A DNA stretch of 64,000 bases, taken from assembly GCA_023384105.1 (NCBI GenBank), contig JAHDXR010000016.1, forward strand, positions 1 to 64,000, written 5' to 3'. Shown piece by piece: positions 8,864 through 28,946 of this stretch. How positions within the stretch are numbered: the stretch's first letter is position 1; the number at the start of each line of letters is the position of its first letter. The stretch comes from Hyphomonadaceae bacterium (GTDB taxonomy: Bacteria; Pseudomonadota; Alphaproteobacteria; Caulobacterales; Aquidulcibacteraceae). The translations under genes and the position numbers were made by a program. Below the pieces are notes generated by a model. The model ran no database searches and was not told where the DNA came from. It saw only the letters and a list, made by a program, of their open reading frames with translations.

Positions 8864-8883
8864 TTATGACTTATTAGTCATAA
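8864..8883. promoter_or_regulatory. catabolic-block operator A (ATGACY-N4-RGTCAT)
   Basis: TTATGACT-TATT-AGTCATAA is a perfect inverted repeat with 8-bp arms, positioned about 10 bp upstream of the C45 peptidase start on the minus strand. It has the same core and 4-bp spacer as the four other sites in this block and is the presumed binding site of the TetR protein at 24259-24984. Confidence 0.7.
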
Positions 8884-8947
8884 TTTACAGCAATGACGGA
8901 CGATGCAAGCCAATAATCCCATATGATCTTCAAAAATATCCCCTTGT

Positions 8948-8970
8948 TATAATGACCATTGGGTCATAAT
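8948..8970 (+). promoter_or_regulatory. promoter and operator B for the enolase-family operon
   Basis: A consensus -10 TATAAT (8948-8953) overlaps the operator ATGACC-ATTG-GGTCAT (8952-8967). The first ATG of the enolase gene follows three bases after the operator, with no Shine-Dalgarno sequence, so the transcript is nearly leaderless. Repressor binding would cover both the -10 element and the start site. Confidence 0.65.
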
Positions 8971-10113
8971 ATGGCGAAGATGCGGATCGAGTCCATAGAG
9001 GTTTTCGTCGCCGGCCATTGGCCCTTCGTGCATGTCACGACCGAGTGCGGCCTCACTGGCGCCGGCGAGAGCACCTACTTTTCCCACCCCCAGGCCATCT
9101 CGGTCGCGTTCGAGGATTTGAAACCTGACCTCATCGGCCAGGACCCGATGCGCGCGGAGTTTCATTTCCAGCGCCTGTTCAAGCGGCATTGCATCCGCGA
9201 CAGCCTGCTCATGGGCGCTCTGAGCGCTCTCGATCAGGCGCTCTGGGATATCAAAGGCAAGGCGCTGGGCGCACCCGTCTGGCAGTTGCTGGGCGGCAAA
9301 GTGCGGGATCGCATCCGCGCAATTCTGCTTGTCGAAGCGCTGACTGAAACCGAGATGTTCGAGAAGGGCAGAGAGGCCAAACGCGAGGGCTTCACCGCGC
9401 TCAAGATCAAGCCGTTCATAGATAATTGGAACACGCTGCCAGCAGCCCTGGCGACAAAGACTGTCGCTGAACGCGTCCTGGCGTTTCGCGAAGAGCTCGG
9501 CTGGGACATCGATATCGCCGTCGAAGCGCACCGCAATCTGACGCCTGCCTCGGCCGCGGAGTTTGCGCGGGAAATTCTCCCTGCCCGCCCCTATTTCATC
9601 GAAGACCCTGTGGTTCCCTTCAGCGTCGCCTCGAATGTCGCAGTGGCGGAGGCGATCCCGGCAAATGTCGCAGTGGCGGAGCGCAACACCAATATTTGGG
9701 AGTTTCGTGAGTATTCGGACGCGCATGGCGTTTCGATCCTGAGACCGGATGCGGGCTTGGCGGGCGGCTTCACGCAACTGAAGAAGATCGCCGCGATAGC
9801 CGAGTCGCGAAGTCAGCGGATCGTGCCGCACAATTTCACCAGTCCATTCATCACCGCCTGTCACGTGCAATTGGCAGCCTCCACAGTAAACTGGGACGTG
9901 CAGGGCTATGTGCGCGAGAATCGCTCGCCTTGGACCGATGTCACCACAACGATCAACGACATCGAGAACGGCTTCCTCACCATTCCGGACCGGCCAGGGA
10001 TCGGCATGGAGTTGAACCTCGATTATCTGCGAACCGCAGCTTACGAACCGATGGGGTCGAAATTCCATCACGGCGCGATCAGAGGCATGGATGGCGCCGT
10101 CAAACACCTCTGA
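8971..10113 (+). CDS. enolase-superfamily enzyme (mandelate racemase / galactonate dehydratase-like)
   Basis: This 380-residue protein has the two-domain plan of the enolase superfamily. An N-terminal capping domain (residues 1-110, with GALSALDQALWDIKGKALGAPVWQLLGG) precedes a beta-barrel with the KxK-type motif in TALKIKPF. Acidic metal ligands lie in AVEAHRN, YFIEDP and AERNTN, and a C-terminal general-base His in RIVPHNF. This points to the mandelate racemase subgroup, which mostly dehydrates acid sugars or epimerises carboxylates. A TTG at 8959 lies inside the operator, so I chose the ATG at 8971. It is first in a plus-strand operon with an SDR, BKACE and an M20 hydrolase. An exact 18-bp repeat (9634 and 9664) encodes NVAVAE twice. 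Confidence 0.85.
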   Translation: MAKMRIESIEVFVAGHWPFVHVTTECGLTGAGESTYFSHPQAISVAFEDLKPDLIGQDPMRAEFHFQRLFKRHCIRDSLLMGALSALDQALWDIKGKALGAPVWQLLGGKVRDRIRAILLVEALTETEMFEKGREAKREGFTALKIKPFIDNWNTLPAALATKTVAERVLAFREELGWDIDIAVEAHRNLTPASAAEFAREILPARPYFIEDPVVPFSVASNVAVAEAIPANVAVAERNTNIWEFREYSDAHGVSILRPDAGLAGGFTQLKKIAAIAESRSQRIVPHNFTSPFITACHVQLAASTVNWDVQGYVRENRSPWTDVTTTINDIENGFLTIPDRPGIGMELNLDYLRTAAYEPMGSKFHHGAIRGMDGAVKHL

Positions 10114-10885
10114 AGCGGCGGAAACGCCAAGATTGATCGCCGCGCTTCAGAACGGCTTCCAGAACGCCGTAATCGTGGTTGCGGGCGGCATGGGCGGCAT
10201 CGGCAAAGCCGTATGCGATCAAGCCGCGCAATTAGGCGCTTGCGTAATCGCAGCCTCGCGTTCGGGCGCCGAACTCGATAAAGCCGAACTGCCTTCGCGC
10301 GGCCAGATTGCGACAGCCAAGCTTGACGTCACTGAGCCTGCCTCGATCCGAGCCTTTGCCGATTGGCTCAAGACAGAGGCCGGCTGTCTCGACATCCTCG
10401 TCAACAGCGCCGGCCTGACCCGCTCGGTTCCGCTCGGCGAACTCGCGCACCTCGACGACGCGCTCATCGACCTGGTGACTGCAGCCAATCACACAGGCGT
10501 GCTCAGGCTTGTCCGCGACCTCTACCCGCTGCTACGTGCTGGTCATGCTCCTGTCATTGTCAACATATCGTCTGTGGCGGCGCGCACCGGCATTGGCAGC
10601 AACATCGCCTATGTCGGCGCCAAAGCGGCGGTCGACGCGATCAGCGTCTCGTTGGCGAAGGCGCTGGCGCCGTCCATTCGCGTCGTGAGCATAGCCCCAA
10701 GCGCGCTCGAAACCGACTTTGCGAAGGGCCGTCCACAGGACTTTTTCGACAAAACCTTGCGCGCCACGCCGCTCAAGCGGCTTGCCAGCGTCGATGAGGT
10801 TGCTGACGCCGTCCTCTGCGCGGCGCGCCTCCTGCCCATGACCACAGGCGCTGTCATCACCGTTGATGGCGGCCGCAGCCTCTAA
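10091..10885 (+). CDS. short-chain dehydrogenase/reductase
   Basis: This 264-residue SDR has a nucleotide-binding motif VVAGGMGGIGKAV near residue 30, the NSAG segment (LVNSAGL), the catalytic Ser in VNISSVAA and the Tyr-Lys pair in AYVGAKAA. It ends with the usual TGAVITVDGG. It overlaps the enolase gene by 23 bp and is followed closely by a BKACE gene, so it is co-translated in the plus-strand operon. A plausible job is oxidation of a beta-hydroxy acid to the beta-keto acid that BKACE cleaves, which is inference from context. The N-terminal 25 residues may be shorter if a later start is used. Confidence 0.88.
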   Translation: MAPSNTSEAAETPRLIAALQNGFQNAVIVVAGGMGGIGKAVCDQAAQLGACVIAASRSGAELDKAELPSRGQIATAKLDVTEPASIRAFADWLKTEAGCLDILVNSAGLTRSVPLGELAHLDDALIDLVTAANHTGVLRLVRDLYPLLRAGHAPVIVNISSVAARTGIGSNIAYVGAKAAVDAISVSLAKALAPSIRVVSIAPSALETDFAKGRPQDFFDKTLRATPLKRLASVDEVADAVLCAARLLPMTTGAVITVDGGRSL

Positions 10886-10902
10886 GCCTCCCCGGAGAGA
10901 CC

Positions 10903-11787
10903 ATGCGCGACGTCATTCTCACTTGCGCCGTCACCGGCAACATCACCAAGCCCAACCAGACGCCGCACCTGCCCATAACGCCGCTCCAGATCGCACAGTC
11001 ATGCCTTGAGGCCGCCGATGCGGGCGCGGCGATCGTGCACATTCACGTCCGCCATCCGGAGAACGGCCGCCCCTCCATGGAGATCGCGCATTATCGCGAA
11101 GTGGTCGAGCGCATCCGCGAACGCAATGAAGATCTTATTCTCAATCTCACCACCGGCCCGGGCGGGCGCTATGTCCCCGACCCTGAAAATCCCCGGCAGG
11201 CGGCGCCTGGCACCTCGCTGCTGCCCCCGCTCCAGCGGGTGGGCCACATTTCGGAACTCAGGCCGGACATCGCCACGCTCGATCTCAACACCATGAACTC
11301 CGGCGACCAGGTGGTGATGAACACGCCGCGCAACACGCGCATCATGGCCGAAGCCATCCTGGCCTCAGGCGCGAAGCCCGAGATCGAGATTTTCAATCCC
11401 GGCGATCTCGTGTTGGCGCGAGATCATCTCGCGAAACTTCGCTTCCCCGACCCGGTGATGTTCTCGTTCGTCCTCGGCGTGAAGTATGGCTGGCCCGCGC
11501 AATTGGAATCCATCGCCCTCGGCAAAAATCTTCTGCCGCCAGGGGCCGTCTGGAGCGTCTTTGGCGTCGGCCCCCACTCGTTTCCCATGGTCGCGCTCGC
11601 CGCCTTGATGGGCGGGCACGCGCGCGTGGGCCTTGAAGACAATATCTATCTCGAAAAAGGCGTGCTTGCGCGCTCCAACGCCGCCCTCTGCGAGAAGGCC
11701 GCGCGCATCCTGACCGATCTTGGCTTCCGGCTCGCGAGCGCGGCTGACGCGCGCGGCATGCTCGGCCTCAAGACTGTGCGACCGTGA
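10903..11787 (+). CDS. beta-keto acid cleavage enzyme (BKACE, DUF849), first copy
   Basis: Enzymes of this zinc-dependent family condense a beta-keto acid with acetyl-CoA and split it into acetoacetate and a new acyl-CoA. The 294-residue protein shows the metal-binding HIHVRHP (HxH) near residue 46, the glycine-rich NLTTGPG, the SFVLGVKYG strand and the conserved GLEDN near the C-terminal third, all typical of BKACE/Kce. GGAGAG lies just upstream of the ATG. Its stop overlaps the GTG start of the M20 hydrolase. A second BKACE is encoded in the same block (21450-22433) and differs enough to suggest a different substrate side chain. The family is clear; the beta-keto substrate is not. Confidence 0.92.
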   Translation: MRDVILTCAVTGNITKPNQTPHLPITPLQIAQSCLEAADAGAAIVHIHVRHPENGRPSMEIAHYREVVERIRERNEDLILNLTTGPGGRYVPDPENPRQAAPGTSLLPPLQRVGHISELRPDIATLDLNTMNSGDQVVMNTPRNTRIMAEAILASGAKPEIEIFNPGDLVLARDHLAKLRFPDPVMFSFVLGVKYGWPAQLESIALGKNLLPPGAVWSVFGVGPHSFPMVALAALMGGHARVGLEDNIYLEKGVLARSNAALCEKAARILTDLGFRLASAADARGMLGLKTVRP

Positions 11788-12947
11788 GCATCGATAACAT
11801 TTGCGCCGATGCCGTTGCATGGCGACATGACCTTCACCGCCATCCAGAGCTCGCCTTCAAGGAAGAGCGCACATCTGGCTTCGTCGCGGCCAAACTAGAG
11901 TCATTTGGCCTCGATGTGACGCGTGGACTCGCCGGCACTGGCGTTGTCGGCACGTTGCGGCGCGGCGCGAGCCCGCGCGCCATCGCGCTCCGGGCCGACA
12001 TGGACGCGCTTGCGATCGAGGAAACCAACACCTTCGCCCATCGCTCCACGCGTCAGGGCCTCATGCACGCCTGCGGTCATGACGGTCATACCGCCATGCT
12101 GCTTGCGGCAGCGCGCGCCCTCGCGCTTGATTCACAATTTGACGGCGCCGTGCACTTCATCTTTCAACCAGCCGAGGAAAACGAAGGCGGCGGCGAAGTC
12201 ATGATCCGGGAGGGCCTGTTCGAGCGTTTCCCCGTCGATGCCGTCTACGGCATGCACAATGCGCCATGGATACCGCAAGGCGTATTCGCCATCCGAACCG
12301 GCCCGATCATGGCCGCGTTCGATCGATTCTGGATTGAGATCGAGGGTGTCGGCGCGCACGGCGCGCTGCCGCACACGGGCGTCGATCCCATCCCGATCGC
12401 CGCGCAAATCGTCATGGCGCTGCAGACACTTGTGTCCCGCCGCACAAATCCGCTTGAAGCGGCGGTCGTCTCCGTTACGCAGATTCATGCAGGCGATAGC
12501 CTGAACGTCATACCGGACAAAGTGCGTCTTGCCGGCGGCGTACGCACTTTCCTGCCTGAAGCGCAAACTACAATCGAAACAGGCGTGCGCACGATTGCGC
12601 AGAACATCGCCGCAGCGCATGGGGCGAACGCCCAACTCAAATACGAGCGCGGCTATCCCGCGACCATCAATGAAAGTAGAGCGGTTGCTGCGGCGCTGAA
12701 CGCGGCGCGCGCGGTGGTTGGCGATGCAAACGTCATAGCCGACACGTCGCCGATGATGGCCTCGGAGGACTTCGCCTTTATGCTGCGCGCCAAGCGCGGC
12801 AGCTATATGTTCATTGGCGCCGGCGGCGGGGCGAACACCTGCATGGTTCACAATCCCGGATACGACTTCAACGACGCCATCCTGCCGTTGGGCGTGCGCT
12901 ATTGGATCGCGCTCGTGCGTCAGGAACTCGCGCCCGGCTCTCCTTAG
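11784..12947 (+). CDS. M20D-family amidohydrolase (hippurate hydrolase-like)
   Basis: This 387-residue zinc amidohydrolase removes acyl groups from N-acyl amino acids. The catalytic and metal-binding segments are all visible: RADMDAL, MHACGHDGHTAMLL, FIFQPAEENEGGG (the Glu pair), YGMHNAPWIPQG, and near the C-terminus MMASEDFAFM. The GTG start overlaps the BKACE stop (GTGA), so it is the last gene of the plus-strand operon, and its end overlaps by 4 bp the convergent end of the symporter gene. In this context it may deacylate an N-acyl beta-amino acid, which is inference. Confidence 0.93.
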   Translation: MSIDNICADAVAWRHDLHRHPELAFKEERTSGFVAAKLESFGLDVTRGLAGTGVVGTLRRGASPRAIALRADMDALAIEETNTFAHRSTRQGLMHACGHDGHTAMLLAAARALALDSQFDGAVHFIFQPAEENEGGGEVMIREGLFERFPVDAVYGMHNAPWIPQGVFAIRTGPIMAAFDRFWIEIEGVGAHGALPHTGVDPIPIAAQIVMALQTLVSRRTNPLEAAVVSVTQIHAGDSLNVIPDKVRLAGGVRTFLPEAQTTIETGVRTIAQNIAAAHGANAQLKYERGYPATINESRAVAAALNAARAVVGDANVIADTSPMMASEDFAFMLRAKRGSYMFIGAGGGANTCMVHNPGYDFNDAILPLGVRYWIALVRQELAPGSP

Positions 12948-14353
12948 CGCGTCGTCTGGAATCCCACGCTGGGTTCACCGCCCACGATTGCTGGCGCGGA
13001 AGCGCGGCGTGCGAGCCGCGTGCGGATCGCCGCGTGCCGGCGCGCCGTGATCGGGTACCCAAGCATCAAGACGCCAGACACGATAAAGGCGACGGCTGGC
13101 AGCGCAAACGCTGTGAACAGCATGCCATGTACCGCGGACGCTGAATTGCCTGCTGCGCCAGGATCGTAACCGACGATCGACAGCATGTAGAACCCCACCG
13201 CTCCGCCAACGGCGCCGCCAGCAGGCGCTAGAAGCGTCCGCATCGAGAAATAGGTGCCCGCACGCGCCTGACCTGTCTTTAGCGTATCGTAGTCGGCAAT
13301 ATCGTTGAGCAACGCCTGCGGAAACATCATGTTCGGCGTGCCAAGCGCGCTCACAAGCGCGCCAAACGCTATGAGCAAGACGAGATTTGCCTCACCTCCC
13401 GGCGGAAACAGAAGATAGGCCGGCATGAGCACGCCGTTGAGGATCTGGCAGCAGCCATAAACGATGTGTTTTCCCGCCCATCTGGCGAGCAGCGTGCAGA
13501 GCGGCACGGACAAGATCTGCGCTGCGGTCGCGGCCAGGAGAAAGAGCACCACTTTGTCGCCGAAACCGAAATGGTCGGCGAGGATGATTGCAAGCAGCGC
13601 GTAGGAAATCGCCCAGCCGATTTGGCTTACGAAATCAGCGCCGATGAAGCGCCGGAATGGCGCATTGCGCGAGAATACAGTGATCATCTCGCCCAGCCGG
13701 TACTCTTCTCCCTTGACCACCTCGCCCCTTGGCGCGGTCAGCACCGCCAAGCCGACGCATACCGGCATAAGCACAATGCCGGTCCAGCCAAGGATCGCCA
13801 TCGCTTCGCGATTCAATTCCGCGGACTGGAGCACGCCGGCAGCCGCCAGCACTTCGGGCACGGCCAGGAAGACGACGCCGCCGACGAGAAGCGATACAGT
13901 CGCCGCGCCCGCAAGCCGGGAACGCTGGGCGTAATCCGCTGTAATCTCGCCAGACCACGTCCGGTACGGCGTGTCGATCACCGAGTGGGCGATGTAGAAG
14001 GAGACAATCGCTACCGCAAAGTAGAGATTGCCCGCATCCGCCGGCGGCATATAGGCCAACCAGAATGCGACGATGGAGAAAGCCGCCCCGCCAATAAGCC
14101 ACGGTTTACGCGGGCCGAGCCACGAGCGCGTGTTATCGCTCAAGAACCCAATCGGGGGATCGATCACGCCGTTGAAGATGCGCGCGAACAAGACGACCGT
14201 GGCGATGCCTGCGGTCGTAGCTTCGGTGTATTGAGCGTAGAACGCCATCAAGAGCGCGGGGAATGGCGAAATGAGCAGCGCCAGCGGCAAGCCCGGCAAC
14301 GCGTAAGCAAAAAGCTGCGGCCATGGCACCGCTTTGCCCGCCCTATCCTTCAT
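12944..14353 (-). CDS. GPH-family (MelB-like) sodium/proton symporter
   Basis: This inner-membrane transporter of 469 residues has about 12 hydrophobic segments. The motifs FNGVIDPPIGFLSDNTRSWLGPRKPWLIGGA in the first third are the GPH hallmark (the RKPW segment between helices 2 and 3), and QALLNDIADYD is the matching signature of the second half. Members carry sugars, glucuronides or other small organic solutes with Na+ or H+. The start overlaps the stop of the iminopeptidase gene (ATGA), placing it last in the long minus-strand operon. It probably carries the hydrolysed product across the inner membrane. Confidence 0.88.
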   Translation of the reverse strand: MKDRAGKAVPWPQLFAYALPGLPLALLISPFPALLMAFYAQYTEATTAGIATVVLFARIFNGVIDPPIGFLSDNTRSWLGPRKPWLIGGAAFSIVAFWLAYMPPADAGNLYFAVAIVSFYIAHSVIDTPYRTWSGEITADYAQRSRLAGAATVSLLVGGVVFLAVPEVLAAAGVLQSAELNREAMAILGWTGIVLMPVCVGLAVLTAPRGEVVKGEEYRLGEMITVFSRNAPFRRFIGADFVSQIGWAISYALLAIILADHFGFGDKVVLFLLAATAAQILSVPLCTLLARWAGKHIVYGCCQILNGVLMPAYLLFPPGGEANLVLLIAFGALVSALGTPNMMFPQALLNDIADYDTLKTGQARAGTYFSMRTLLAPAGGAVGGAVGFYMLSIVGYDPGAAGNSASAVHGMLFTAFALPAVAFIVSGVLMLGYPITARRHAAIRTRLARRASAPAIVGGEPSVGFQTTR

Positions 14354-15333
14354 GCCCGTCCCTCTTGTTTTTCTATGTCAGAGACAAACACCTGCGCCGC
14401 GCGCGCAACCGCGCGCGCAAACGCCGGCTCCGTCGGATAGTGTCCTGCCGCCGGCACAATCTCGAGACGCGCGTGCGGCAAGCGTTGCTTCAAGTCCCAC
14501 GCATTCGCCGGCGTGGTGCAGCAATCGTAGCGGCCCGTAATGATGCTGACAGGAAGGTTTTCCAGGCGATCCGCGTCACGCAGTAGGGCGTCATCGTCGA
14601 GGAAAAAGTCATTCAAGGCATAGTGCGCGAAGATGCGTCCATAGTCCGGCCCGCGCGCCTGATTAGCTGGCGCAAGCGGCGCATCGAAGTGCATGAAGCC
14701 TTCTTCGTAGAGATAGAGCCTGGTCGCGGCGTCCGCCGCCAGAACCGCGTCATCGCCAAGGATGCGCCTGCAATAAGCGCTGCGCAGGTCGATGCGTTCC
14801 GCTTCCGGCACGAACGCCGCAAACTCGTCCCACAGTTCGGGAAACAGCGAGCGCACGCCCTGAAACCACCACTGCGTGTCCGATCGGCGGCAAAGCCATA
14901 GACTGACAAGGAAAGCGCCAAGGCATTTCTCGGGATGCGCCTGCGCATAGGCAAGCGCCACGGTCGACCCCCACGATCCGCCGCTCACGATCCAACGATC
15001 GATGCCGAGATACAGCCGCAGATGTTCCATATCCGCGATCGTGTGCTGCAACGTGTTGGCGCGAAGCTCGTTGCGCGGTTCCGAACGCCCGCAGCCGCGC
15101 TGATCGAACTGGATAAGGCGCACGCGCCGTCCGTCGGTGAAGCGGCTTACACCGCTCATCAGGGCGCCGCCCGGCCCTCCATGGCATGAAATCATCGGCA
15201 CGCCATCGGCTGCACCCGACTCGCGCCAATAAAGGCGATGTCCATCGCCTACATCAAGCAGACCATCGGCGCGCACCGGCGCTGGCTCACAAAAGAGATC
15301 ATCAGCGCGCCGCATGGGGCCAGCGCCGCTCAT
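14350..15333 (-). CDS. pip: proline iminopeptidase (S33 alpha/beta hydrolase)
   Basis: This cytoplasmic serine peptidase of 327 residues removes N-terminal proline or related residues. The oxyanion-hole segment is HGGPGGAL, the nucleophile elbow is GGSWGS, the acid is in GRYDCCTTP and the His in AGHYPTEP. The YWRESG start of the core and the FDQRGCGRSEP strand are the usual Pip landmarks. It is joined by ATGA overlaps to genes on both sides. Being in this operon suggests it cleaves a peptide-like bond in the imported substrate; relatives are known to act on amides and lactones too. Confidence 0.9.
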   Translation of the reverse strand: MSGAGPMRRADDLFCEPAPVRADGLLDVGDGHRLYWRESGAADGVPMISCHGGPGGALMSGVSRFTDGRRVRLIQFDQRGCGRSEPRNELRANTLQHTIADMEHLRLYLGIDRWIVSGGSWGSTVALAYAQAHPEKCLGAFLVSLWLCRRSDTQWWFQGVRSLFPELWDEFAAFVPEAERIDLRSAYCRRILGDDAVLAADAATRLYLYEEGFMHFDAPLAPANQARGPDYGRIFAHYALNDFFLDDDALLRDADRLENLPVSIITGRYDCCTTPANAWDLKQRLPHARLEIVPAAGHYPTEPAFARAVARAAQVFVSDIEKQEGRA

Positions 15334-15743
15334 GCAGACGCACGCGCCTTGCCAAGCTCGGCCCGAATAAGCGCGTCCTCCGATTCAGCGAGCGCAGCAT
15401 GGGCCTTGGTGGGGCGAATGAACACCGTGAGCTCTTTCACCTTGCCTTGTTCGTTCAGCCGGAAAATATCGAGGCCGTGCACCTGGATCGGGCCGATATT
15501 GCCCTTGAACTCCATGATGGCCTCATCGCCGCATGGCCACGTCCTATCATAGTGGAAATCCTCAACGATCTTAGGGATCGTCTTCAGCACGATCTGCACG
15601 TGCGCCTTGTCCGTAATCGCCTTCAGAAAACGCGGCGTGTTGAGCTCGACTTCGTCGGCCAGGACAGCATCTATGCCGTCATGGTCCTTATGCGCGATGA
15701 TATCGAGAATATGCGTGATCAGTTTCTGCGCTCTGTCGCTCAT
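15330..15743 (-). CDS. SnoaL-like / NTF2-fold protein
   Basis: This 137-residue protein starts MSDRAQKLITHILDIIAHKDHDGID and reads DVLADEVELNTP-like and DIFRLNEQGKVKELTVFIRP segments, which fit the NTF2/SnoaL fold (cone-shaped alpha+beta barrel). The family covers small isomerases, cyclases, hydratases and binding proteins, so no reaction can be named. The ATG overlaps the stop of the upstream serine hydrolase (ATGA) and its stop overlaps the pip start. An open frame continues upstream to 16187, but that part is antisense-like noise inside the hydrolase gene. Confidence 0.8.
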   Translation of the reverse strand: MSDRAQKLITHILDIIAHKDHDGIDAVLADEVELNTPRFLKAITDKAHVQIVLKTIPKIVEDFHYDRTWPCGDEAIMEFKGNIGPIQVHGLDIFRLNEQGKVKELTVFIRPTKAHAALAESEDALIRAELGKARASA

Positions 15744-16909: not shown

Positions 16910-17684
16910 GGCGCTGCATCCAGTCGAGCGTCTCGAGCGTCGGCGTCCGCGGCATATACTCAGCGCCAAACCATCCTTTATAGCCGGCCCGTTCCAGCCC
17001 ATCGAAAATGCGCGCGAAATCGAGTGTGCCGTCGCCGGGAGGCTGGCGCCCGGGCATATCGGAGAATTGCACGTGTGCGGTGACATCAGCTGTCCGCGCA
17101 AACGCCTCGACTGGATCGGCGCCATTCATCGCGACGTGATAGATGTCGAACTGCAAGCCGAGCCCGCCCGGATAATGCGTTCGGATAAAGTCCGCGCCGG
17201 TATCGATGTCATTGATGAGAGCATCCGGCGTTTCAACTCGGTTCATAGGCTCGATCAACACCCGCCCGCCGACACCGCGGCGCCCGTGTTCGCCCATCGC
17301 ATAGTCGATGTTTGAGCGATAGACCCCGAGGCAGCGCTCACGATCCTCTCCTTGCGGGATACGCGACGGACCGAGGTGGATGAACCGTGCGCCAAGCGCC
17401 ATCGCGGCGCTCAGCGCTTTGTCCATCTCGGCGCGAAATGTCTCTTCGCGTCCGGGAACGCCCGACAAGCCAGACCCGCCGCTCAGATAGTCGCCCATGC
17501 CGACATTGATGAGAACGACGTCCATTTCCGCCGCGCGCGCCGCTCCTCCCATCGCTTGCGGATCGCCTTCAGCGAGCACTTGTATCTCTGCGCCTACAAA
17601 CCCCGCCTTCCGCGCAGCCATGAAGCGGTCAAGCAACGCAAACTCGCGAAACATCATCGAGACGCTGGTCGACCAGATGCGCAT
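16902..17684 (-). CDS. hydroxypyruvate isomerase-like TIM-barrel enzyme
   Basis: This 260-residue protein of the xylose-isomerase-like TIM-barrel superfamily resembles Hyi/OtnI. Segments VLINVGMGD, GARFIHLGPSRIP, VLIEPMNRVETPDALI, GLQFDIYHVAMNG, AHVQFSDMPGRQPPGDGTLDFA and GWFGAEYMP follow the Hyi order, with metal-binding Glu and Asp in LIEPMN, FDIYH and GAEYMP. Hyi interconverts hydroxypyruvate and tartronate semialdehyde. A GarR-like dehydrogenase in the same operon (23327-24262) could then reduce tartronate semialdehyde to glycerate. The start lies 3 bp after the stop of the aminotransferase gene. Another sugar isomerase or epimerase activity is possible. Confidence 0.82.
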   Translation of the reverse strand: MRIWSTSVSMMFREFALLDRFMAARKAGFVGAEIQVLAEGDPQAMGGAARAAEMDVVLINVGMGDYLSGGSGLSGVPGREETFRAEMDKALSAAMALGARFIHLGPSRIPQGEDRERCLGVYRSNIDYAMGEHGRRGVGGRVLIEPMNRVETPDALINDIDTGADFIRTHYPGGLGLQFDIYHVAMNGADPVEAFARTADVTAHVQFSDMPGRQPPGDGTLDFARIFDGLERAGYKGWFGAEYMPRTPTLETLDWMQRLG

Positions 17685-17687
17685 GGT

Positions 17688-19019: not shown

Positions 19020-19059
19020 GATGAGCGTTACTCCGCGAAGCAAAAGAGGCTGAGGTCCT

Positions 19060-20100: not shown

Positions 20101-20112
20101 CCCGTCCTCCGC

Positions 20113-21450: not shown

Positions 21451-22433
21451 CAGAAGTTCACCTGGTCTTTGCCCTTCGTGCCGAGGATGCGCCTCGCCTC
21501 GTCTGGCGTGGCGACTTCAAGCCCCAATTCCTCGATGATGCGGCGGATGCGGCCTACTTGTTCGGCGCTCGATTTGGCGAGCTGCCCGCGCCCATACCAG
21601 AGGCTGTCCTCAAGCCCGACCCGGACGTTTCCGCCGAGCAGCGCGGCCTGGGTGGTCAAGCGTATCTGTTCTTTGCCCGCGGCCAGCACCGACCAATAGT
21701 AGTTGTCGCCGAACAAATCGTCCGCCGTCTGACGGAAGTGCAGCACATGCTTGGGATCGGACCCGATGCCGCCCAGAAATCCAAACACGGACTGGATGAA
21801 AAAGGGCGGTTTCACGTGTCCCAAATCCCACAGCATCTTCAGCGCATAGAGATGGCCGATATCAAAACACTCGTATTCGAAGACAACGCCGCGTTCCTGC
21901 CCCAGCTCTTTGGCGATGCGCTCCATGCTCGCCCATGTGTTCTGCATCGTCAGGTCTTTGGTGGCGTGGACGAACAGCTTTTCCCAGTCGCTGAGCTTAT
22001 TGATGTCGACGCGGCCGCCCATGATCCAGTTCGCGGCGTTCATGGGGCCCATGTTGAACGACGTGATCTCCGGCGCGAATTGCTTCGGCGCGGCAAGACG
22101 TTCGTCGAGAACGTCCTTCCAGTCGGTCTTTACATCGAAGCCGCCATCGGCTTTGCGCCGGATCGCGGGCTGGCCTGTGGTGATGTTGATGATGACGTCG
22201 GACTGCTGCTTGATGCGCGAGAGGTAAAGTCCATAGACCTCCGGCGTCGTTACGGGGCATCCTGTTTCCGGATCGCGGGCGTGAAGGTGCACGATCGCCG
22301 CGCCAGCTTCGGCCGCCGCAACCGAGTCGGCCACAATCTGATCGGGCGTAATCGGCAGATGCGGCGACATGAACGGCATATGCATAGCGCCCGTCGTCGC
22401 GCTTGTGATGATGACTTTTGGGGACTTCTTCAT
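21450..22433 (-). CDS. beta-keto acid cleavage enzyme (BKACE, DUF849), second copy
   Basis: This second BKACE of 327 residues has the zinc motif HLHARDP, then INITTGQP, SFNMGPMNAANW, EYECFDIGHLYAL, QSVFGFLGGIG and GLEDSLWYG, all in family order. It cleaves a beta-keto acid with acetyl-CoA to give acetoacetate and an acyl-CoA. I chose the ATG at 22433 because a strong GGGAGGAAA precedes it and it overlaps the SDR stop (ATGA); the frame is open to 22511 but those 26 residues do not belong. The sequence around the substrate pocket differs from the plus-strand copy, so the two probably take different beta-keto acids. Confidence 0.92.
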   Translation of the reverse strand: MKKSPKVIITSATTGAMHMPFMSPHLPITPDQIVADSVAAAEAGAAIVHLHARDPETGCPVTTPEVYGLYLSRIKQQSDVIINITTGQPAIRRKADGGFDVKTDWKDVLDERLAAPKQFAPEITSFNMGPMNAANWIMGGRVDINKLSDWEKLFVHATKDLTMQNTWASMERIAKELGQERGVVFEYECFDIGHLYALKMLWDLGHVKPPFFIQSVFGFLGGIGSDPKHVLHFRQTADDLFGDNYYWSVLAAGKEQIRLTTQAALLGGNVRVGLEDSLWYGRGQLAKSSAEQVGRIRRIIEELGLEVATPDEARRILGTKGKDQVNF

Positions 22434-23281
22434 GATTTCCTCCCGAGCGCAGCGGCAAAGGCGTCGGGCGAGAGCGCACCGCCGCCTGTAAGCATCTGTC
22501 CGCCGTCGCAAGAAAAGACGCCGCCAGTGACGTAAGCCGCGGCGGGCGACGCCAGGAACACCGCCATCGCCGCGACATCTTCTTTCGCGCCGTAGCGGCG
22601 CAGCGCCGTTGAACGCTCCACGACGCCTCGCGCTTCAGGCGTCGGCGCGAGCCGCGTCATGCCCTCGGTGCCATCGATCGGCCCCGGCACAATCGCATTC
22701 ACACGAATGCCTGCCGGGCCCCACTCGAGCGCAAGCACCTTCGTCAGCATATCGACGCCGGCCTTTGCGGCGCACACATGAGCTTGACCGGCAAACGGCA
22801 GGCTCGCCTGCGGCGCCGAGATGTTGATCATCGCGCATCCGGGCTTGCGCGCCACATCGAAGGCGGCGCGCAGCACGTTGAAAGTTCCGAGCAGATCGAT
22901 GTCGACGACGGTCTTGAACGCGTTCGCCGACATCAAAGCGGCCGGCGCAACGAAATTTCCCGCAGCGCCCGACACCACAATCGAAAGCGGTCCATGAGCA
23001 ACCGCGGCGTCGCGCGCTGCGGCTGCGGCCGCGTCGAAATCGCGGACGTCGACCGCAAACCCCATGGCTGCTTCGCCAAGATGCTTGAGCGCGGAGGCGA
23101 CATTGTCCGGCTTGCGGCTCATGACCGCCACACGCGCGCCCGCCCGCTGCAGCGCCGCTGCGATCTCGAGATTGATGCCGCTGGTGCCGCCGGCCACGAA
23201 GGCGCTCTGGCCCTGCAGCAGCCCGGGCGCGAAAGTCGCCGCCAGCTCCTTGGGTTGCGTTGCCTCGTGCGCGCCTGCCAT
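22430..23281 (-). CDS. SDR resembling 2,4-dienoyl-CoA reductase
   Basis: This 283-residue short-chain dehydrogenase has the nucleotide motif FVAGGTSGINLEIA. The usual Tyr-x-x-x-Lys is replaced: the segment reads GQAHVCAAKAGVD, with no Tyr four residues before Lys. The same HxxxAK pattern, and the following PGPIDGTEGMTRL, are what I recall of peroxisomal-type 2,4-dienoyl-CoA reductases, which reduce unsaturated acyl-CoAs with NADPH. GGAGGG precedes the ATG. The gene follows operator C and overlaps the BKACE start. It may process the acyl-CoA released by BKACE, so the chain attached to the beta position could be unsaturated. Confidence 0.85.
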   Translation of the reverse strand: MAGAHEATQPKELAATFAPGLLQGQSAFVAGGTSGINLEIAAALQRAGARVAVMSRKPDNVASALKHLGEAAMGFAVDVRDFDAAAAAARDAAVAHGPLSIVVSGAAGNFVAPAALMSANAFKTVVDIDLLGTFNVLRAAFDVARKPGCAMINISAPQASLPFAGQAHVCAAKAGVDMLTKVLALEWGPAGIRVNAIVPGPIDGTEGMTRLAPTPEARGVVERSTALRRYGAKEDVAAMAVFLASPAAAYVTGGVFSCDGGQMLTGGGALSPDAFAAALGRKS

Positions 23282-23326: not shown

Positions 23327-23346
23327 TTATGACCCGTTGGTCATGT
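23327..23346. promoter_or_regulatory. catabolic-block operator C inside the dehydrogenase stop region
   Basis: ATGACC-CGTT-GGTCAT lies at 23329-23344. On the minus strand it encodes the last residues Met-Thr-Asn-Gly-Ser and stop of the upstream dehydrogenase gene while lying 46 bp upstream of the SDR start. It probably serves an internal promoter for the downstream part of the minus-strand operon. Confidence 0.6.
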
Positions 23347-24262
23347 TTGCAAGAGCGTGCGGCTGGTTGGGCGGCGTTTTCCGCGCCTCGGCGAGTTCAA
23401 GATAGAGCGCGCTGTGGTCCAGCGCGGCGCCTCCGGTTTCGCACATGCGCGCGTAGAGATCGCGGGCGAGAGCGCCGAAACGAAGATCGAGCCCAAGCGA
23501 CGCCGCGAGGTCTCTTGCCGTATCGAGGTCTTTCAGCTGCACGTGCGCGTAGGCGCCGGGCTTGAAATTGCGCTCGATCATGCGCCGGCCATGCTGTCGC
23601 CACACGGTCGAATCGGCGAAGCCGCCTTGCAGCGCTCTATGAACGGCCTCCGCGTCGCCGCCGCCTTTCTCCACCAGGAGCAGCGCCTCTGCGACCGCGC
23701 CAATCGTGACTCCCACGATGAGTTGGTTGGCGATCTTGGCAAGCTGCCCCGCCCCGCAGGGGCCGACATGGGTCACGCGCCCCATGGCGGACAGCACCGG
23801 CAAGACACGCGCAAGATCGCCTTCCGCGCCGCCCGCCATGATGGAAAGATTGCCCTCGATAGCGCCGCGCTCTCCGCCCGAAACCGGCGCATCGACGTAA
23901 CCGCAACCGAGCGCCTTCAGGCGCTCGGCATGCCGCTGCGCGGTTTCAACCGGAATTGAACTCATGACCACCACGACAGCGCCGCGCTTCAGGACCGGCG
24001 CAACGCCTTGCGTTCCGTCAGCGCCAAACAAGACCTCGTCGCAGACCGCCCCGGTGCTCAACATGAGAATGACGACATCCGCGTCGGCGACGCAGGCGAA
24101 CGGCGTTGCACAGACGCTAACGCCTTCATTCAACAGCGCTTTGACTTTCTCCGGCGTGCGGTTCCAGGCTCGTATGGCGAACCCGGCGCGTGCGATGTTG
24201 CGCGCCATGGGCGCGCCCATAATGCCCGCGCCCATAAGGGCGACGATGGTTCGCCGGCTCAT
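23327..24262 (-). CDS. 3-hydroxyisobutyrate dehydrogenase / tartronate semialdehyde reductase family
   Basis: This NAD(P)-dependent beta-hydroxyacid dehydrogenase has 311 residues. The Rossmann motif is LMGAGIMGAPMARN at residues 9-22, the substrate loop is DAPVSGGERGAIEGNLSIMAGG and the catalytic lysine lies in GAGQLAKIANQLIVG. Relatives include HIBADH and GarR. A Hyi-like isomerase in the same operon makes tartronate semialdehyde reduction a fair guess, while methylmalonate semialdehyde chemistry (HIBADH) is an equal rival. The ATG overlaps the TetR stop (ATGA). The last six codons double as half of operator C, an unusual use of coding sequence. Confidence 0.9.
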   Translation of the reverse strand: MSRRTIVALMGAGIMGAPMARNIARAGFAIRAWNRTPEKVKALLNEGVSVCATPFACVADADVVILMLSTGAVCDEVLFGADGTQGVAPVLKRGAVVVVMSSIPVETAQRHAERLKALGCGYVDAPVSGGERGAIEGNLSIMAGGAEGDLARVLPVLSAMGRVTHVGPCGAGQLAKIANQLIVGVTIGAVAEALLLVEKGGGDAEAVHRALQGGFADSTVWRQHGRRMIERNFKPGAYAHVQLKDLDTARDLAASLGLDLRFGALARDLYARMCETGGAALDHSALYLELAEARKTPPNQPHALANMTNGS

Positions 24263-24984
24263 CCGCGCTCTGGCGTCAGCGCCGGCAAGAGCATCAGCAC
24301 GTCGGCTGCCTCCGTCGCCGGCGGATCGCGGCCGTAGATCGCACGATAAGTCAAGAGCGCATGCATGCGGGTCAGCGCCTCATCGTCATAGGGTTGCTCG
24401 TGGCCAGTGCCAGTCAACACGCCGAAGCGGTTGAAGAGACTTTGGTCGAGCATGCCGCCGACAGTCCGTACTGTGAACAAGAGGTTTTCCCGGCTCGGCG
24501 CTTGGTCTCCGACCCGCGCCTCGACCGACTCGGCGATGCGCCGCGACACATAGTCATTTCGCTCATGCCAGATTTTGCGCATCTTCGGGTCGATCTCGCC
24601 CATCTGAACGATGCAGCGCAACACGCCGACATTGCTCGCGAACGTGCCTTCGTACCAGGCGACCCAGGCGACGGTCGCGGCGAAGGCGCTGTCGCGCGGA
24701 TCAATGATTGGAACGAACTGCCGCTCGAACGTGACATATTGTTCCGCGAGCTCCTGCAGAAACTCGTCCTTGGTGTCGAAATAGATATAGAAGGTGCCCT
24801 TCGCCAAGCCGGCGCCGGCGCAGATCTCTTCGACATTGAGTTCGCGGTAGCCGACGTCTTCCAAGAGAAGCGCGCCAGCCGCCATCAGCTTGAGTTTGGT
24901 CTTCTCACCGCTGCGAGCCTTGCGAATCTCATTCGCCAGCGCGCCGAGATAGGTGGCGAAGCGTATCCGGGAAATATTGGCCAA
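24259..24984 (-). CDS. TetR-family transcriptional regulator of the catabolic block
   Basis: The N-terminal DNA-binding domain is plain: KLKLMAAGALLLEDVGYRELNVEEICAGAGLAKGTFYIYFDTKDEFLQEL, with the recognition helix in LAKGTFYIYF. The C-terminal ligand domain is not like a named subfamily. I place the start at TTG 24984 (241 residues) because the frame above it is Gly/Ala/Arg-rich and unlike a TetR; it stays open to 25149, overlapping the lactonase stop. The gene lies in the middle of the operon and overlaps the dehydrogenase start. Palindromes with ATGACC arms and a 4-bp spacer, the usual size for TetR dimers, occur at all promoters around it, so it likely represses the whole block and itself until a ligand from the substrate binds. 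Confidence 0.85.
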   Translation of the reverse strand: MANISRIRFATYLGALANEIRKARSGEKTKLKLMAAGALLLEDVGYRELNVEEICAGAGLAKGTFYIYFDTKDEFLQELAEQYVTFERQFVPIIDPRDSAFAATVAWVAWYEGTFASNVGVLRCIVQMGEIDPKMRKIWHERNDYVSRRIAESVEARVGDQAPSRENLLFTVRTVGGMLDQSLFNRFGVLTGTGHEQPYDDEALTRMHALLTYRAIYGRDPPATEAADVLMLLPALTPERG

Positions 24985-25142
24985 GGGCCCTGGTCCTGAC
25001 TCTGCCGCGCCAGGATCGCGGCGCGCACGGTTCAGATAAGGCGAGCCGGCCCTGTTTGTCGATTGACGCGCCCTCGATCCGCCAGCAGCGGACGTTTCAA
25101 TGCCAGCTGCAGCCCCATCCCCTCGGCGCTTGGACACCGGGC

Positions 25143-26114
25143 CTACCACAGCCCCATCCTCGGCGTCGGCCCGAAGTTAAGCGGATATCCCGGCCGCGGC
25201 CAAGCGAAACGTCCCAATCGGCCCGACGCCGACATCGTTACATAGACACTCCTGAGATCCGGCCCTCCAAAGCAAACATTGGTGGTGAAATGATCGTCGA
25301 TCGCGAAGTGGCGCGCCGTCTTGCCGTCAGGCGCGATATCCCAAACCCCGCCGTTGACGAGGCTCGCCACGCACACGTGTCCCTCGATGTCGACCGCCAT
25401 CGAATCGAGCCTATTATATCCAGGCAGCCCCACAAGCAGCCGGCCGCCGTTCGCCGCAGGCGGAAATGATCTGGGCGAGATTTCTCCGGGGCGGTCAAGG
25501 TCAAACGCCCATACGCAGCGCGTGGCGGTCTCCGCCACGTAAAGCGTCTTTTCATCTGGCGCTAATCCGACGCCGTTGGCTGTCGTCATCTCCCTGACGA
25601 CAGCGCGCGCCGCGCCATCCGCGCTCACATAGTAGACCCCGCCCAACCCCTGCCGGCCGTTCAGCCGCTTGCCGTGGTCGGTGAAATAGAAGCCGCCCTG
25701 GCGATCGAATACGAGATCGTTGGGAGATTGCAGGCGCGCGCCCTCGACCGCCTCGCAGATACGCTCCACTTCGCCCGTATGCAGATTGACGCGCTCGATC
25801 CAGCCCGGCGTCTCGCTCTGCCCGATGGCGCGCTTCAAACCCGGTGCGTACTCCTCGTAAATCCAACCGCCGCTGTTGCAGACATAGCACCAGTCACCGT
25901 CTCCCAGCGCCGCGCCGTTCGGCCCGCCGCCCAAGTCAGCGATCACCACGATCTCGCCAGCCGGCGTCACGCGCGACAGCGAACGTCCGCCAATTTCCGC
26001 CACGATGACGTTGCCGTCGTTCATGGCGATCGGGCCCTCGGGAAATCGCAAACCTTCGGCGACGATCTCGATGTCCGGTTTTACGGGATGGAGGATTTCC
26101 ACCTCGCCCTGCAT
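25143..26114 (-). CDS. SMP-30/gluconolactonase-family lactonase
   Basis: This six-bladed beta-propeller of about 323 residues has the family pattern: EGLRFPEGPIAM with the metal-binding Glu, LQSPNDLVFDRQGGFYFTD (Asn and Asp ligands), TANGVGLAPDEKTLYVAET and DSMAVDIEGHVCVASL. These are calcium- or zinc-dependent lactonases. I chose the ATG at 26114 with GGAG about 11 nt upstream; an in-frame GTG at 26126 would put GGA directly against the start. It follows the TonB receptor by about 90 bp and precedes the TetR gene. A lactone ring in the imported compound, or formed by a dehydrogenase, would be opened here. No signal peptide, so cytoplasmic. Confidence 0.88.
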   Translation of the reverse strand: MQGEVEILHPVKPDIEIVAEGLRFPEGPIAMNDGNVIVAEIGGRSLSRVTPAGEIVVIADLGGGPNGAALGDGDWCYVCNSGGWIYEEYAPGLKRAIGQSETPGWIERVNLHTGEVERICEAVEGARLQSPNDLVFDRQGGFYFTDHGKRLNGRQGLGGVYYVSADGAARAVVREMTTANGVGLAPDEKTLYVAETATRCVWAFDLDRPGEISPRSFPPAANGGRLLVGLPGYNRLDSMAVDIEGHVCVASLVNGGVWDIAPDGKTARHFAIDDHFTTNVCFGGPDLRSVYVTMSASGRLGRFAWPRPGYPLNFGPTPRMGLW

Positions 26115-26202
26115 GTGTGCGCACACTCCATTTCAAGCCAAGCGGGGCGAAGCCGGGCAATCCAGCTCCGCCCCTCCCCTCGTTCCGTTCCGAGCCCCTG
26201 GC

Positions 26203-28587
26203 CTAGTCGCCTTGCAGCCGCCACCGCAGATTGACGCCGATCACGCGCGGCGAGCCCTGGAAAAAGAGATCGTCGCCCTTGACCGGATCGCCGCCGGTCG
26301 GATTGCTTGGATTCGTCGTGACAAAGCGCGACAGCGGAATGAATTCGTCAGTGGCGTTGTCGACAAAGAGAAACAAGGACCAGCGCGACGTCTCGACCCC
26401 GCCGCGGAGATCGAGCGTGGTGTACCCGTCGATCCGTTCGCTCGGCGTACCGATGCGCAGGAGGCTCGACAACGCATCGCTGCGATACGCAACGGCGCCG
26501 CGAAGGAAGAGGTCCATGCCCTGCGAGACCGGCGCCCGATAGGTTGCGGAGAGGCTTGCGGTCGTATCCGCGACTTCGGGGATATCCGCTTCCGCTATCG
26601 ATGTTCCGGAGGCAATGACGTCCTCAAGCTTGGTGTCGAGGAAGGTCGCCGCGCCGGCGATGGTCAGATTGTCCGTGGCGCGCCAGTTCAGTTCGAGATC
26701 AAGCCCGATGCTGCGCGCGTCGCCGGCATTGCCGATGATCTCGCCGACGCCGCCCGTCCCCTCGGCGGTGACCACTTGGAGATCCTGCCACTGATTGTAG
26801 AAGAGCGCCGCGTTGAAGTTGAGCCCCATTTCTCGCTGGTAGTATTTGAGGCCCAGCTCGTAGGTTGTCAGCGTTTCCGGATCATAGACGAGATCGTCCG
26901 CGGTCGCCCCCGCAACGAGCGGGTAAAGATCGTTTTGGCCGCCGCTTCGGAACCCGCGGCCAATCGAAAAATACGTGGTCAGGTTATCGCTGGGTTCAAA
27001 CGTAATCGACGCACGCGGATTGAACACGCTCTCGCTGGCTTCCGATGCGAAGTCGGTCGGGAACGGAATGCCGCTGAAAAGACTGGTCGCGGTGGTGAGC
27101 GATTCCCGTTCGTCCTCGAAGTAGCGCGCGCCCAGCAAGAACGTCCACTGGTCGTTGATCTCGTAGGTGCCTTCCGCGAAGACCGCTGTCTGCGTCGTGT
27201 TTGAATCCGAAATGCTGTCGAGATCGCCGAAGCCATCGGGAACGGGATTGGGCGCGAAGAGGAGCCCCAAGAGCCCGCCGGACATGGCGTTCGCGACGGC
27301 GCCCGGCAGCAGCGGCTCCTGCGGCGCGCGTATTCGGAAATAGATGTCCCGATCCCGATAGAACACGCCGGTCGTGAGCTGGAACGGGCCATCGAAATCC
27401 GAAACGAACCGGAACTCCTGATTGAATTCCGTCACACCGATGTCGAATTCCGCCCGCGACCCCTGAAACGTGAAGGCGCCGCCCGTGATCGGGAAACCAA
27501 TCTGGTTGGCGAGCGGAATAATCCCGATTTGATCCTGGATTTGATTGATTTGCCGATCGAAGTAATTCGACGACGACAGGAAACTGCCGAACGACACCTC
27601 TTTCTCAAGTACGAGGCTGTAAACCTCGAACTTATCGTCCATCCGCTCGAGGCTGGTCGAGAACGTGCCGACGCGATCTTCCGTGCCGCGATTGCGGAAC
27701 CTGCGCTCGGAATTCTGCCCCATCGCCGACAGCGTCGCGGTGAAATCGGCGGTCGGCGTCCATCGGACCTGCGCGCGCCCACCGGTAGTTGTTGCGTCGT
27801 TCGCGTTCTCAGTGACGGCGCCCGCTGTAAAAGTGCTAAGCACGTCCGGCACGGCGGGCCCGAGAATCGGATTGGGCGGCGGAAGGAAGCTTGCAGTGAC
27901 GATCGGATCGATGCGGTCGATCCAGCCGCCCTCTTCGGAATGAAAGCCGGTGACTCGAACCGCGAGCCGGTCTTCGATCAGCGGCAGATTGAACATCAGA
28001 TTGATGTTCGAGTTGGCCTCTCCGCCCTCGATCTGGCCATAGCTTGCATCAAGGGCGGCGTCCACGGCGCTTGTATCCGGCGCGTTGGAAATCACGCGGA
28101 TGGTGCCCGCCAAGGAGCCCTCGCCGAATATCGTTCCTTGCGGCCCGCGCAGCACTTCAACGCGCTGCACGTCAAACATCGCCGCCTGAGGGAAGAAGCC
28201 GCCGACCGAGAACGGCGTCTCGTCGATATAGAGGCCGACCGCCGTGCCCGTCGCGCCAAAGATGTTGTTGGTGTTGAGTTCGGCGATGCCGCGCACCGCC
28301 ACCGCGCCTGAACCGGCCTGATTGGCGCGCAACTCGACTCCCGAAATCTGATCGACGATGCTGGCGAAGTCCGTCGCGCCGGCATCCTGCAATTGCTCTT
28401 CGGAAAAAACATTGATCGCGATTGGCACGTCCTGCAGCGCTTGCTCACGCCGCGTCGCCGTCACGATGATCTCATCACCGAGGGCGTCCGCGCCCTCATC
28501 CTGGGCGAGCGCGGGTGTCGCCGTCAGCAGCGGAACCGCCAGGCTCAAGCATGTCGTCAGCAGCTTCCGCTTCGTTCTGTTACCCAT
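26203..28587 (-). CDS. TonB-dependent outer-membrane receptor
   Basis: This TonB-dependent transporter of 794 residues belongs to the group with the start signature DEIIVTATRREQALQDVPIAINVFSEEQL. A signal peptide ends TPALAQ, the TonB box region is EIIVTATR, and the plug domain follows (VDQISGVELRANQAGSGAVAVRGI) with the barrel to the end. A GGGGAGG ribosome-binding site precedes the ATG. It is the first gene of the minus-strand operon and lies behind operator D, so the regulon has its own outer-membrane uptake. Unlike many barrels the last residue is Asp (RWRLQGD), not Phe or Trp, although aromatic and Arg residues lie just before. Ligand unknown; a compound too big for porins is expected. 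Confidence 0.93.
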   Translation of the reverse strand: MGNRTKRKLLTTCLSLAVPLLTATPALAQDEGADALGDEIIVTATRREQALQDVPIAINVFSEEQLQDAGATDFASIVDQISGVELRANQAGSGAVAVRGIAELNTNNIFGATGTAVGLYIDETPFSVGGFFPQAAMFDVQRVEVLRGPQGTIFGEGSLAGTIRVISNAPDTSAVDAALDASYGQIEGGEANSNINLMFNLPLIEDRLAVRVTGFHSEEGGWIDRIDPIVTASFLPPPNPILGPAVPDVLSTFTAGAVTENANDATTTGGRAQVRWTPTADFTATLSAMGQNSERRFRNRGTEDRVGTFSTSLERMDDKFEVYSLVLEKEVSFGSFLSSSNYFDRQINQIQDQIGIIPLANQIGFPITGGAFTFQGSRAEFDIGVTEFNQEFRFVSDFDGPFQLTTGVFYRDRDIYFRIRAPQEPLLPGAVANAMSGGLLGLLFAPNPVPDGFGDLDSISDSNTTQTAVFAEGTYEINDQWTFLLGARYFEDERESLTTATSLFSGIPFPTDFASEASESVFNPRASITFEPSDNLTTYFSIGRGFRSGGQNDLYPLVAGATADDLVYDPETLTTYELGLKYYQREMGLNFNAALFYNQWQDLQVVTAEGTGGVGEIIGNAGDARSIGLDLELNWRATDNLTIAGAATFLDTKLEDVIASGTSIAEADIPEVADTTASLSATYRAPVSQGMDLFLRGAVAYRSDALSSLLRIGTPSERIDGYTTLDLRGGVETSRWSLFLFVDNATDEFIPLSRFVTTNPSNPTGGDPVKGDDLFFQGSPRVIGVNLRWRLQGD

Positions 28588-28675
28588 CGCGACCTCCCCA
28601 ATCCTCGTGGCGCGCCGATTGCGCCTTCGCGCCGAGCATGCCTCTTGCTCTTGGTCTCGGCCCCACGCCCTATTG

Positions 28676-28695
28676 TTATGACCGACGGGTCATTA
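28676..28695. promoter_or_regulatory. catabolic-block operator D, TonB receptor promoter
   Basis: ATGACC-GACG-GGTCAT lies at 28678-28693, about 90 bp upstream of the TonB receptor start. On the minus strand TTGCCA followed 17 bp later by CATAAC could be its -35/-10, with the operator in the spacer. Same design as sites A, B, C and E. Confidence 0.65.
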
Positions 28696-28811
28696 TTTGG
28701 CAAGATTTCTTTTTGAGCGTGCGTGGGTCGCTTTAGACCACGGTTTTATTTTGCTTTTTATCCCCTTTCCCGAGACCTGCGGCGCCGTAATTGCTCTTTC
28801 AATCTGCCATG

Positions 28812-28831
28812 TAGTGACTTTTCGGTCACTA
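28812..28831. promoter_or_regulatory. degenerate third operator in the divergent promoter region
   Basis: TAGTGACT-TTTC-GGTCACTA has the same 4-bp spacer and GAC/GTC core as the block operators, but with GTGAC for ATGAC. It lies between operators D and E in the 374-bp divergent region and could be a weaker auxiliary site. Confidence 0.4.
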
Positions 28832-28912
28832 TTATGATGGTGATGCATGCAGATTTCTTGCTAAATTCTCTTGCTCCGCCGATATTTCGTCTGGCGCAGC
28901 CACACCTTAACC

Positions 28913-28946
28913 GAATATAATATGACCAATGGGTCATATTATATTC
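28913..28946 (+). promoter_or_regulatory. catabolic-block operator E with 15-bp arms and overlapping -10 element
   Basis: The left arm GAATATAATATGACC and right arm GGTCATATTATATTC are perfect inverted repeats around the spacer AATG. A consensus TATAAT (28916-28921) lies in the left arm, facing the AceE-like gene. An ATG at 28929 starts inside the spacer about 7 bp after the -10, so a leaderless start in the same frame is possible. Confidence 0.7.

Follow-up and report, generated by a model that had tools for sequence, protein, structure and literature searches.

A palindromic operator confined to a 20-gene block, and its probable TetR-family repressor, in a Hyphomonadaceae bacterium

The locus and its palindromic sites

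The DNA considered here is a 64-kb stretch of a Hyphomonadaceae genome (contig JAHDXR010000016.1, positions 1 to 64,000; "the window"), in which 20 genes at 7726-31334 ("the block") were recognized by Pfam and NCBIfam scans. The genes fall into five units, with boundaries drawn from gene packing, and each unit is led by an exact copy of one palindrome, ATGACYNNNNRGTCAT (ATGACY-N4-RGTCAT). One of the units carries a gene for a TetR-family regulator. As judged from sequence comparisons, the palindromes are most probably a single operator that is confined to the block and bound by the TetR protein encoded there.

An operator lies 4-106 bp upstream of all five unit starts (Table 1), in agreement with the first-pass annotation, which had placed every site just upstream of a gene or operon start. 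Operator 3 is contained wholly within the last codons and stop of the upstream dehydrogenase open reading frame (ORF). Mechanical extension of ORFs brings the sites at 8952 and 28922 to an ORF edge, yet both are upstream of the starts judged likelier (8971 or 8980, and 28962, respectively). Units 2 and 3 are convergent and meet at 12944-12947.

Table 1. Operator sites, gene units and other features of the block and its right edge (AT, aminotransferase)
Feature	Position	Strand	Sequence	Remarks
Operator 1	8866..8881		ATGACTTATTAGTCAT	13-28 bp upstream of C45 hydrolase start (8853, -)
Operator 2	8952..8967		ATGACCATTGGGTCAT	Just upstream of MR/MLE enzyme (start 8971 or 8980, +)
Operator 3	23329..23344		ATGACCCGTTGGTCAT	3' end of dehydrogenase ORF; 48-63 bp upstream of SDR2 (start 23281, -)
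Operator 4	28678..28693		ATGACCGACGGGTCAT	91-106 bp upstream of TonB receptor (start 28587, -)
Degenerate site	28814..28829		GTGACTTTTCGGTCAC	Between operators 4 and 6; core TGACY-N4-RGTCA intact
Operator 6	28922..28937		ATGACCAATGGGTCAT	Inside longer palindrome; 25-40 bp upstream of aceE-like gene (start 28962, +)
Unit 1	7726..8853	-		C45 family acyltransferase/hydrolase (NF040521, 156 bits, above cut-off)
Unit 2	8971..12947	+		MR/MLE sugar-acid-dehydratase-like enzyme, SDR1, BKACE1, M20 amidohydrolase
Unit 3	12944..23281	-		In transcription order: SDR2, BKACE2, AT2, CPBP protease, AT1 (first five); hydroxypyruvate-isomerase-like, beta-lactamase-fold hydrolase, SnoaL-like, prolyl-aminopeptidase-like, GPH symporter (last five)
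AT2 (unit 3)	20113..21450	-		Class III aminotransferase
Isomerase-like enzyme (unit 3)	16902..17684	-		Hydroxypyruvate-isomerase-like TIM barrel
Unit 4	23327..28587	-		TonB receptor, SMP-30/gluconolactonase-like, TetR, 3-hydroxyisobutyrate/tartronate-semialdehyde-reductase-like dehydrogenase
TetR-family regulator (unit 4)	24259..24984	-		Proposed operator binder; likely start TTG at 24984
Unit 5	28962..31334	+		aceE-like 790-amino-acid thiamine-diphosphate enzyme, related to pyruvate dehydrogenase E1
tRNA-Met (CAT)	31567..31643	-		Right edge of lower-G+C segment

The five perfect sites that the annotation had listed, at 8866, 8952, 23329, 28678 and 28922, all proved exact in a pattern search, and none would be expected in the window by chance (0 in 100 dinucleotide shuffles). 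No strict site had been noticed elsewhere in the window, and there is none elsewhere in the genome either (3.67 Mb in 28 contigs, 99.8% complete): all five genomic copies are within the block, and the reversed control pattern has no match. When the pattern is relaxed to the core TGACYNNNNRGTCA (TGACY-N4-RGTCA), the genome contains eight sites, six of them in the block and two elsewhere, with two matches for the reversed control. Under uniform placement, finding six of eight in the block has P ~2e-12, a value that is indicative only, because the edges of the block were chosen with the sites in view.

A degenerate sixth site had also been reported, at 28812-28831. A search allowing up to two mismatches does add one site only in the window, at 28814-28829. 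Chance would give 3.3 matches at two mismatches, so that the mismatch search alone lends the site no support, but its core (TGACT-N4-GGTCA) has no mismatch. In a family sample of 60 genomes, 22 have a strict match, counting the window's own; apart from that genome the number is 0-2 per genome, and the reversed controls likewise give 0-2. The congener G032 has a strict site adjoining its aceE-like gene; this one falls within a hydrolase ORF and was regarded as a chance match.

The TetR regulator and its relatives

The first reading of the sequence had placed the only TetR gene of the block inside one of the controlled operons. The gene is indeed the sole TetR gene recognized among the 20 block proteins, and it lies in unit 4. 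The product carries the TetR helix-turn-helix domain PF00440 (42.7 bits, cut-off 24), and its best NCBIfam model is AcuR, matched at 36.6 bits and hence below the cut-off of 247. AlphaFold predicts helices only; the best of five models, made from a two-row alignment, has a mean predicted local distance difference test score (pLDDT) of 81.2 (the others, 40.7-78.4). The top folds among the 50 listed of 942 structural matches to this model are TetR proteins with template-modelling (TM) scores of 0.5-0.65, the best being EthR (0.65).

Relatives were sought in overlapping genome samples (family, order, class, phylum and Gemmatimonadota). Within the family, three of 60 genomes have a match at E<=1e-15, namely the window's own and two at 29 and 35% identity. 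The order sample gave only the window's own genome (1/398, at 1e-22), as did the phylum sample (1/398), and the class sample gave the own genome and one weak match (2/385, at 1e-25). Five of 395 Gemmatimonadota genomes have matches, three of which are orthologues while two are weak matches only. A scan of species genomes found one relative, 48% identical over the best segment, in a Gemmatimonadetes metagenome-assembled genome (L031, VGVQ01000004.1), and four records of a plasmid collection have matches at 27-32% identity. The protein did not prove to belong to a common TetR family; matches are rare across the samples searched. Orthologues were found only in three related Gemmatimonadota genomes (L031, L055 and L056), with 45-48% identity to the TetR of the block.

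All three orthologous loci carry related palindromes. In each, two tandem TGACC-N4-GGTCA sites, 23 bp apart, are located upstream of tetR, and one further site follows directly after tetR and precedes the next gene; the spacer is always 4. Footprinting of this kind is described, in the passages available, for Snowprint (PMC10858194). The same search of eight TetR loci that are more distant (L057-L064, 9.4-20 kb each) found no TGACC-N4-GGTCA site; in L060 the shorter GACC-N4-GGTC is present some 470 bp upstream. The 20.6 kb of L031 contain four sites versus 0.1 expected, the fourth being inside a hydrolase ORF, and L055 and L056 have none beyond the three at tetR. The block's TetR and the orthologues have in common the sequence AKGTFY[IV]YF at the recognition helix. 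A search of the genome, related genomes and TetR orthologues had been proposed along with the original observation, and such sites do recur at the three tetR orthologues.

The genes next to these orthologues are in part those of the block. Downstream of tetR, L055 and L056 have a class III aminotransferase, a xylose-isomerase-like TIM barrel and an isocitrate/isopropylmalate-type dehydrogenase, and in L055 a TonB receptor comes next. Identity to the window's enzymes is 62-64% for the aminotransferase (compared with AT2) and 50-51% for the TIM barrel (compared with the isomerase-like enzyme). Judged by gene order and identity, two of the three loci have the regulator and its site travelling with the aminotransferase/isomerase pair. 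In L031, tetR is followed by an MFS transporter, a BKACE protein (28-33% identical to the two in the window) and a beta-lactamase-fold hydrolase (marginally similar to that of the window), and an aminotransferase-like stretch, 39-40% identical, is found about 7 kb away.

Related sites outside the block

One of the two relaxed sites outside the block is at C4:40508. The other, TGACCGATCGGTCA (G000:C15:13830-13843), is located before a paaA gene (PF05138), with another TetR gene (by Pfam) about 4 kb away, which from its context is presumably PaaR. Of the family sample of 60, 12 genomes keep the TGACCGATCGGTCA site; within the genus the figure is 11 of 30. Ten of the 12 loci have a paaA-like start after the site, and none of the 11 genomes other than the window's own has a match to the block's TetR at E<=1e-15. 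This site is likely to be the operator of a second TetR protein with a related half-site. A wider regulon in the genome is not supported; of the two outside sites, the one at C15 belongs to a phenylacetate (paaA) promoter kept in congeners that lack the block's TetR.

The island at tRNA-Met

The G+C content is 0.59-0.66 at 8-32 kb of the window versus 0.65-0.72 outside, and the lower-G+C segment ends at the tRNA-Met gene. The block thus has the tRNA-bounded shift in composition by which a genomic island is recognized. The right flank is matched in all 30 genus genomes compared, and many of the alignments start at 31567, the 3' end of the tRNA. Among 11 congener regions that were fetched, the match starts at 31567 in seven and 3-7 bases earlier in three, with none seen in one. 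These 11 regions have a G+C content of 0.52-0.66, which suggests that the side of tRNA-Met holding the block is a variable hotspot in the genus.

Other signs of an island were sought with less success. The longest match to the tRNA end that might form a direct repeat is only 12 bp (at 12959), and no integrase family was recognized among the 40 ORFs scanned at 1-45 kb. An empty-site comparison failed: the left flank is matched in 15 of 30 genus genomes (E<=1e-40), and was seen in none of the 11 regions to the left of tRNA-Met.

At this tRNA-Met, the congener G032 (L101, G032:C1:2468601-2485000) carries another island, in which the TetR gene has no close relative. That island encodes an aceE-like protein 75% identical to the one in the block, an S58 DmpA-type peptidase, an M55 D-aminopeptidase, an aminotransferase and a CoA ligase. 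Beyond the tRNA gene, positions 35396-35498 of the window belong to a dispersed repeat of about 105 bp, which occurs on both strands and in many copies in this genome and in congeners. The host is placed in the Alphaproteobacteria on the MnmA protein of 38623-39861, whose ten best matches in the plasmid collection are all from that class, the top one at 61% identity.

The enzymes and their possible substrate

The best Protein Data Bank (PDB) match of both AT1 and AT2 is 6K8H, the beta-amino-acid transaminase of Sphaerobacter thermophilus (StoTA). AT2 has an arginine, Arg32, that aligns with Arg36 of StoTA, a residue suggested to bind the substrate carboxylate in the passages available of PMC10589169. 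With this arginine in place, AT2 is a candidate beta-transaminase of the StoTA type. Glutamate-1-semialdehyde aminomutases also match AT1 and AT2, somewhat lower, and both proteins score below the curated hemL cut-off (301.5 and 276.9 bits versus 527.3).

Both BKACE proteins carry PF05853 (303.4 and 312.2 bits, cut-off 24.8), and BKACE2 comes nearer to the 3,5-dioxohexanoate model, though below its cut-off (414.6 versus 430 bits). The isomerase-like enzyme is below the hydroxypyruvate isomerase equivalog (188.7 versus 353.45 bits), and the dehydrogenase is below that for tartronate-semialdehyde reductase (260.8 versus 340.75 bits). No E2 or E3 partner for the aceE-like, pyruvate dehydrogenase E1-like enzyme was recognized among the block genes.

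The best guess for the substrate class would be a beta-amino-acid-type compound. Many of the block genes, not necessarily all 20, would fit a beta-amino or 3-amino-2-hydroxy acid that is set free from a conjugate. A more specific proposal, which we regard as unlikely, is that a dedicated, horizontally moving TetR regulon shared by Alphaproteobacteria and Gemmatimonadota degrades a conjugate with a 3-amino-2-hydroxy (isoserine-type) or other beta-amino acid, for example a natural peptide side chain. The steps on this proposal would be outer-membrane uptake, hydrolysis, beta-transamination, BKACE cleavage, and a branch through tartronate-semialdehyde or hydroxypyruvate. Among the papers listed by literature searches that combined the enzymes with TetR, no pathway of such make-up was seen. 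A microcystin-type (mlr) reading was set aside; the CPBP protease matched only generic CPBP models.

Regulatory interpretation

We consider it highly probable that the palindromes are one operator from which the TetR protein of 24259-24984 would repress the five units, and that the block is an acquired island. A TetR dimer would occupy each site, covering or adjoining the promoter, and keep the five units silent until a small molecule of the pathway releases it, which would open uptake, hydrolysis, transamination and cleavage together. The block, as an island acquired beside tRNA-Met, would thereby carry its own regulator and sites. Binding, repression, inducer and substrate are what we infer for this regulon. 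The circuit would be autoregulated because tetR lies inside one of the controlled units. Since no operator site is present in the 158-bp gap (24985-25142) before the likely tetR start, autoregulation in the window would run through the operator-led TonB-receptor unit; in the three orthologous loci, by contrast, two sites directly precede tetR, and autoregulation is supported indirectly. The earlier proposal of a single, TetR-autoregulated regulon holds in part: it is supported as to the one block-confined operator, whose counterparts occur at 3/3 orthologous tetR genes versus 0/8 distant ones, and has indirect support as to autoregulation.

Along with the empty gap before tetR, several observations weigh against repression of the five units by this TetR. 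Scans for consensus promoters at the locus did no better than chance. The three orthologous TetR proteins are 81-93% identical to one another and come close to being one observation. In addition, the TGACCNNNNGGTCA pattern occurs 18 times in the 3.9 Mb of the L031 genome (reversed control, 0) and is not special to the locus there; even at this site density, three sites within 0.9 kb at tetR have P ~5e-9. One other TGACC-N4-GGTCA pair in the same genome (G778, L066 5686-5806, C1) flanks the start of an unrelated TetR gene (TetR by Pfam). That pair, like the paaA site with its different TetR gene nearby, indicates that other TetR proteins use related half-sites, and the sites of the block might accordingly serve a regulator encoded elsewhere, such as a TetR with a TGACC-type operator, with the block's own TetR a bystander. 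We judge this improbable, as the genome has no strict match outside the block and the sites are found again beside orthologues of the block's TetR in distant bacteria. Very slightly more probable, and still unlikely, is that the TetR protein activates the units or both activates and represses them. An activator could act from operator 4 and the 28814 site, which are at least 91 bp upstream of the nearest gene starts; three other sites are 4-40 bp from a start, and most TetR proteins repress. Chance palindromes or copies of a repeat element can be set aside almost entirely. Relatives do have single strict sites, 0-2 per genome, but the shuffles, the genome-wide reversed control and the site excess in L031 led us to reject this explanation, and the sites at orthologous loci and the variation of spacers and flanks between copies also speak against it.

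The most serious alternative accepts the operator and its TetR and holds that the block is a mosaic of several pathways under one switch, with a beta-amino or amino-hydroxy acid part, a sugar-acid part and hydrolases, rather than one pathway with one substrate. This is quite possible, if somewhat less so than not. The genes adjoining tetR differ between the loci, with aminotransferase, isomerase and a different dehydrogenase in L055 and L056 versus transporter, BKACE and beta-lactamase-fold enzyme in L031, and G032, a congener that lacks this TetR, has the close relative of the aceE-like gene in another island at that tRNA. Against a mosaic are the close packing of the genes in five units under shared control, and a chemistry that they could plausibly have in common, in which BKACE cleavage comes after transamination.

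Under the preferred reading, repression of all five units by the block's TetR, the locus offers a self-contained 20-gene regulon together with a regulator-operator pair whose sequence is clear and testable. Shared control would make one system of the two HemL-like transaminase-type enzymes and the two BKACE enzymes, and so narrow down what their substrate could be; the core conserved beside tetR elsewhere (AT2 and the isomerase-like enzyme) is the place to start. The pair could become a biosensor part once the inducer is known.

Comparison with known systems

The control proposed for the block is that of a locus-restricted TetR catabolic regulon of a known kind, and its regulatory logic is ordinary. 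RutR and PaaR are local TetR repressors of catabolic clusters that resemble the present case in helix-turn-helix family, in a 16-bp palindrome with a 4-bp spacer, in sites before units, and in having the regulator among them. The RutR operator is of the TTGACC-N4-GGTCAA type. Five to six sites at one locus exceed the one or two that are usual for a local repressor. The part available of PMC10891134 describes RutR as binding a palindrome of about 16 bp. No entry named RutR is present among the 39 PDB sequence matches or the 50 listed of 942 structural matches of the block's TetR. A literature search for the operator sequence in five written forms, which would miss other spellings, found no paper.

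Among enzyme systems, lysine fermentation (Kce/Kat) brings a BKACE enzyme together with a HemL-like aminotransferase, as in the block, according to the passages available of PMC3149608. Kat acts on CoA esters, and no aminomutase was recognized among the 20 block proteins scanned. The deoxyribonate oxidation cluster of Pseudomonas simiae differs from the block in that aminotransferases, peptidases and a TonB receptor go unmentioned in the passages available of PMC6365646; as in the block, these describe SDR, BKACE, lactonase and MFS transporter genes together.

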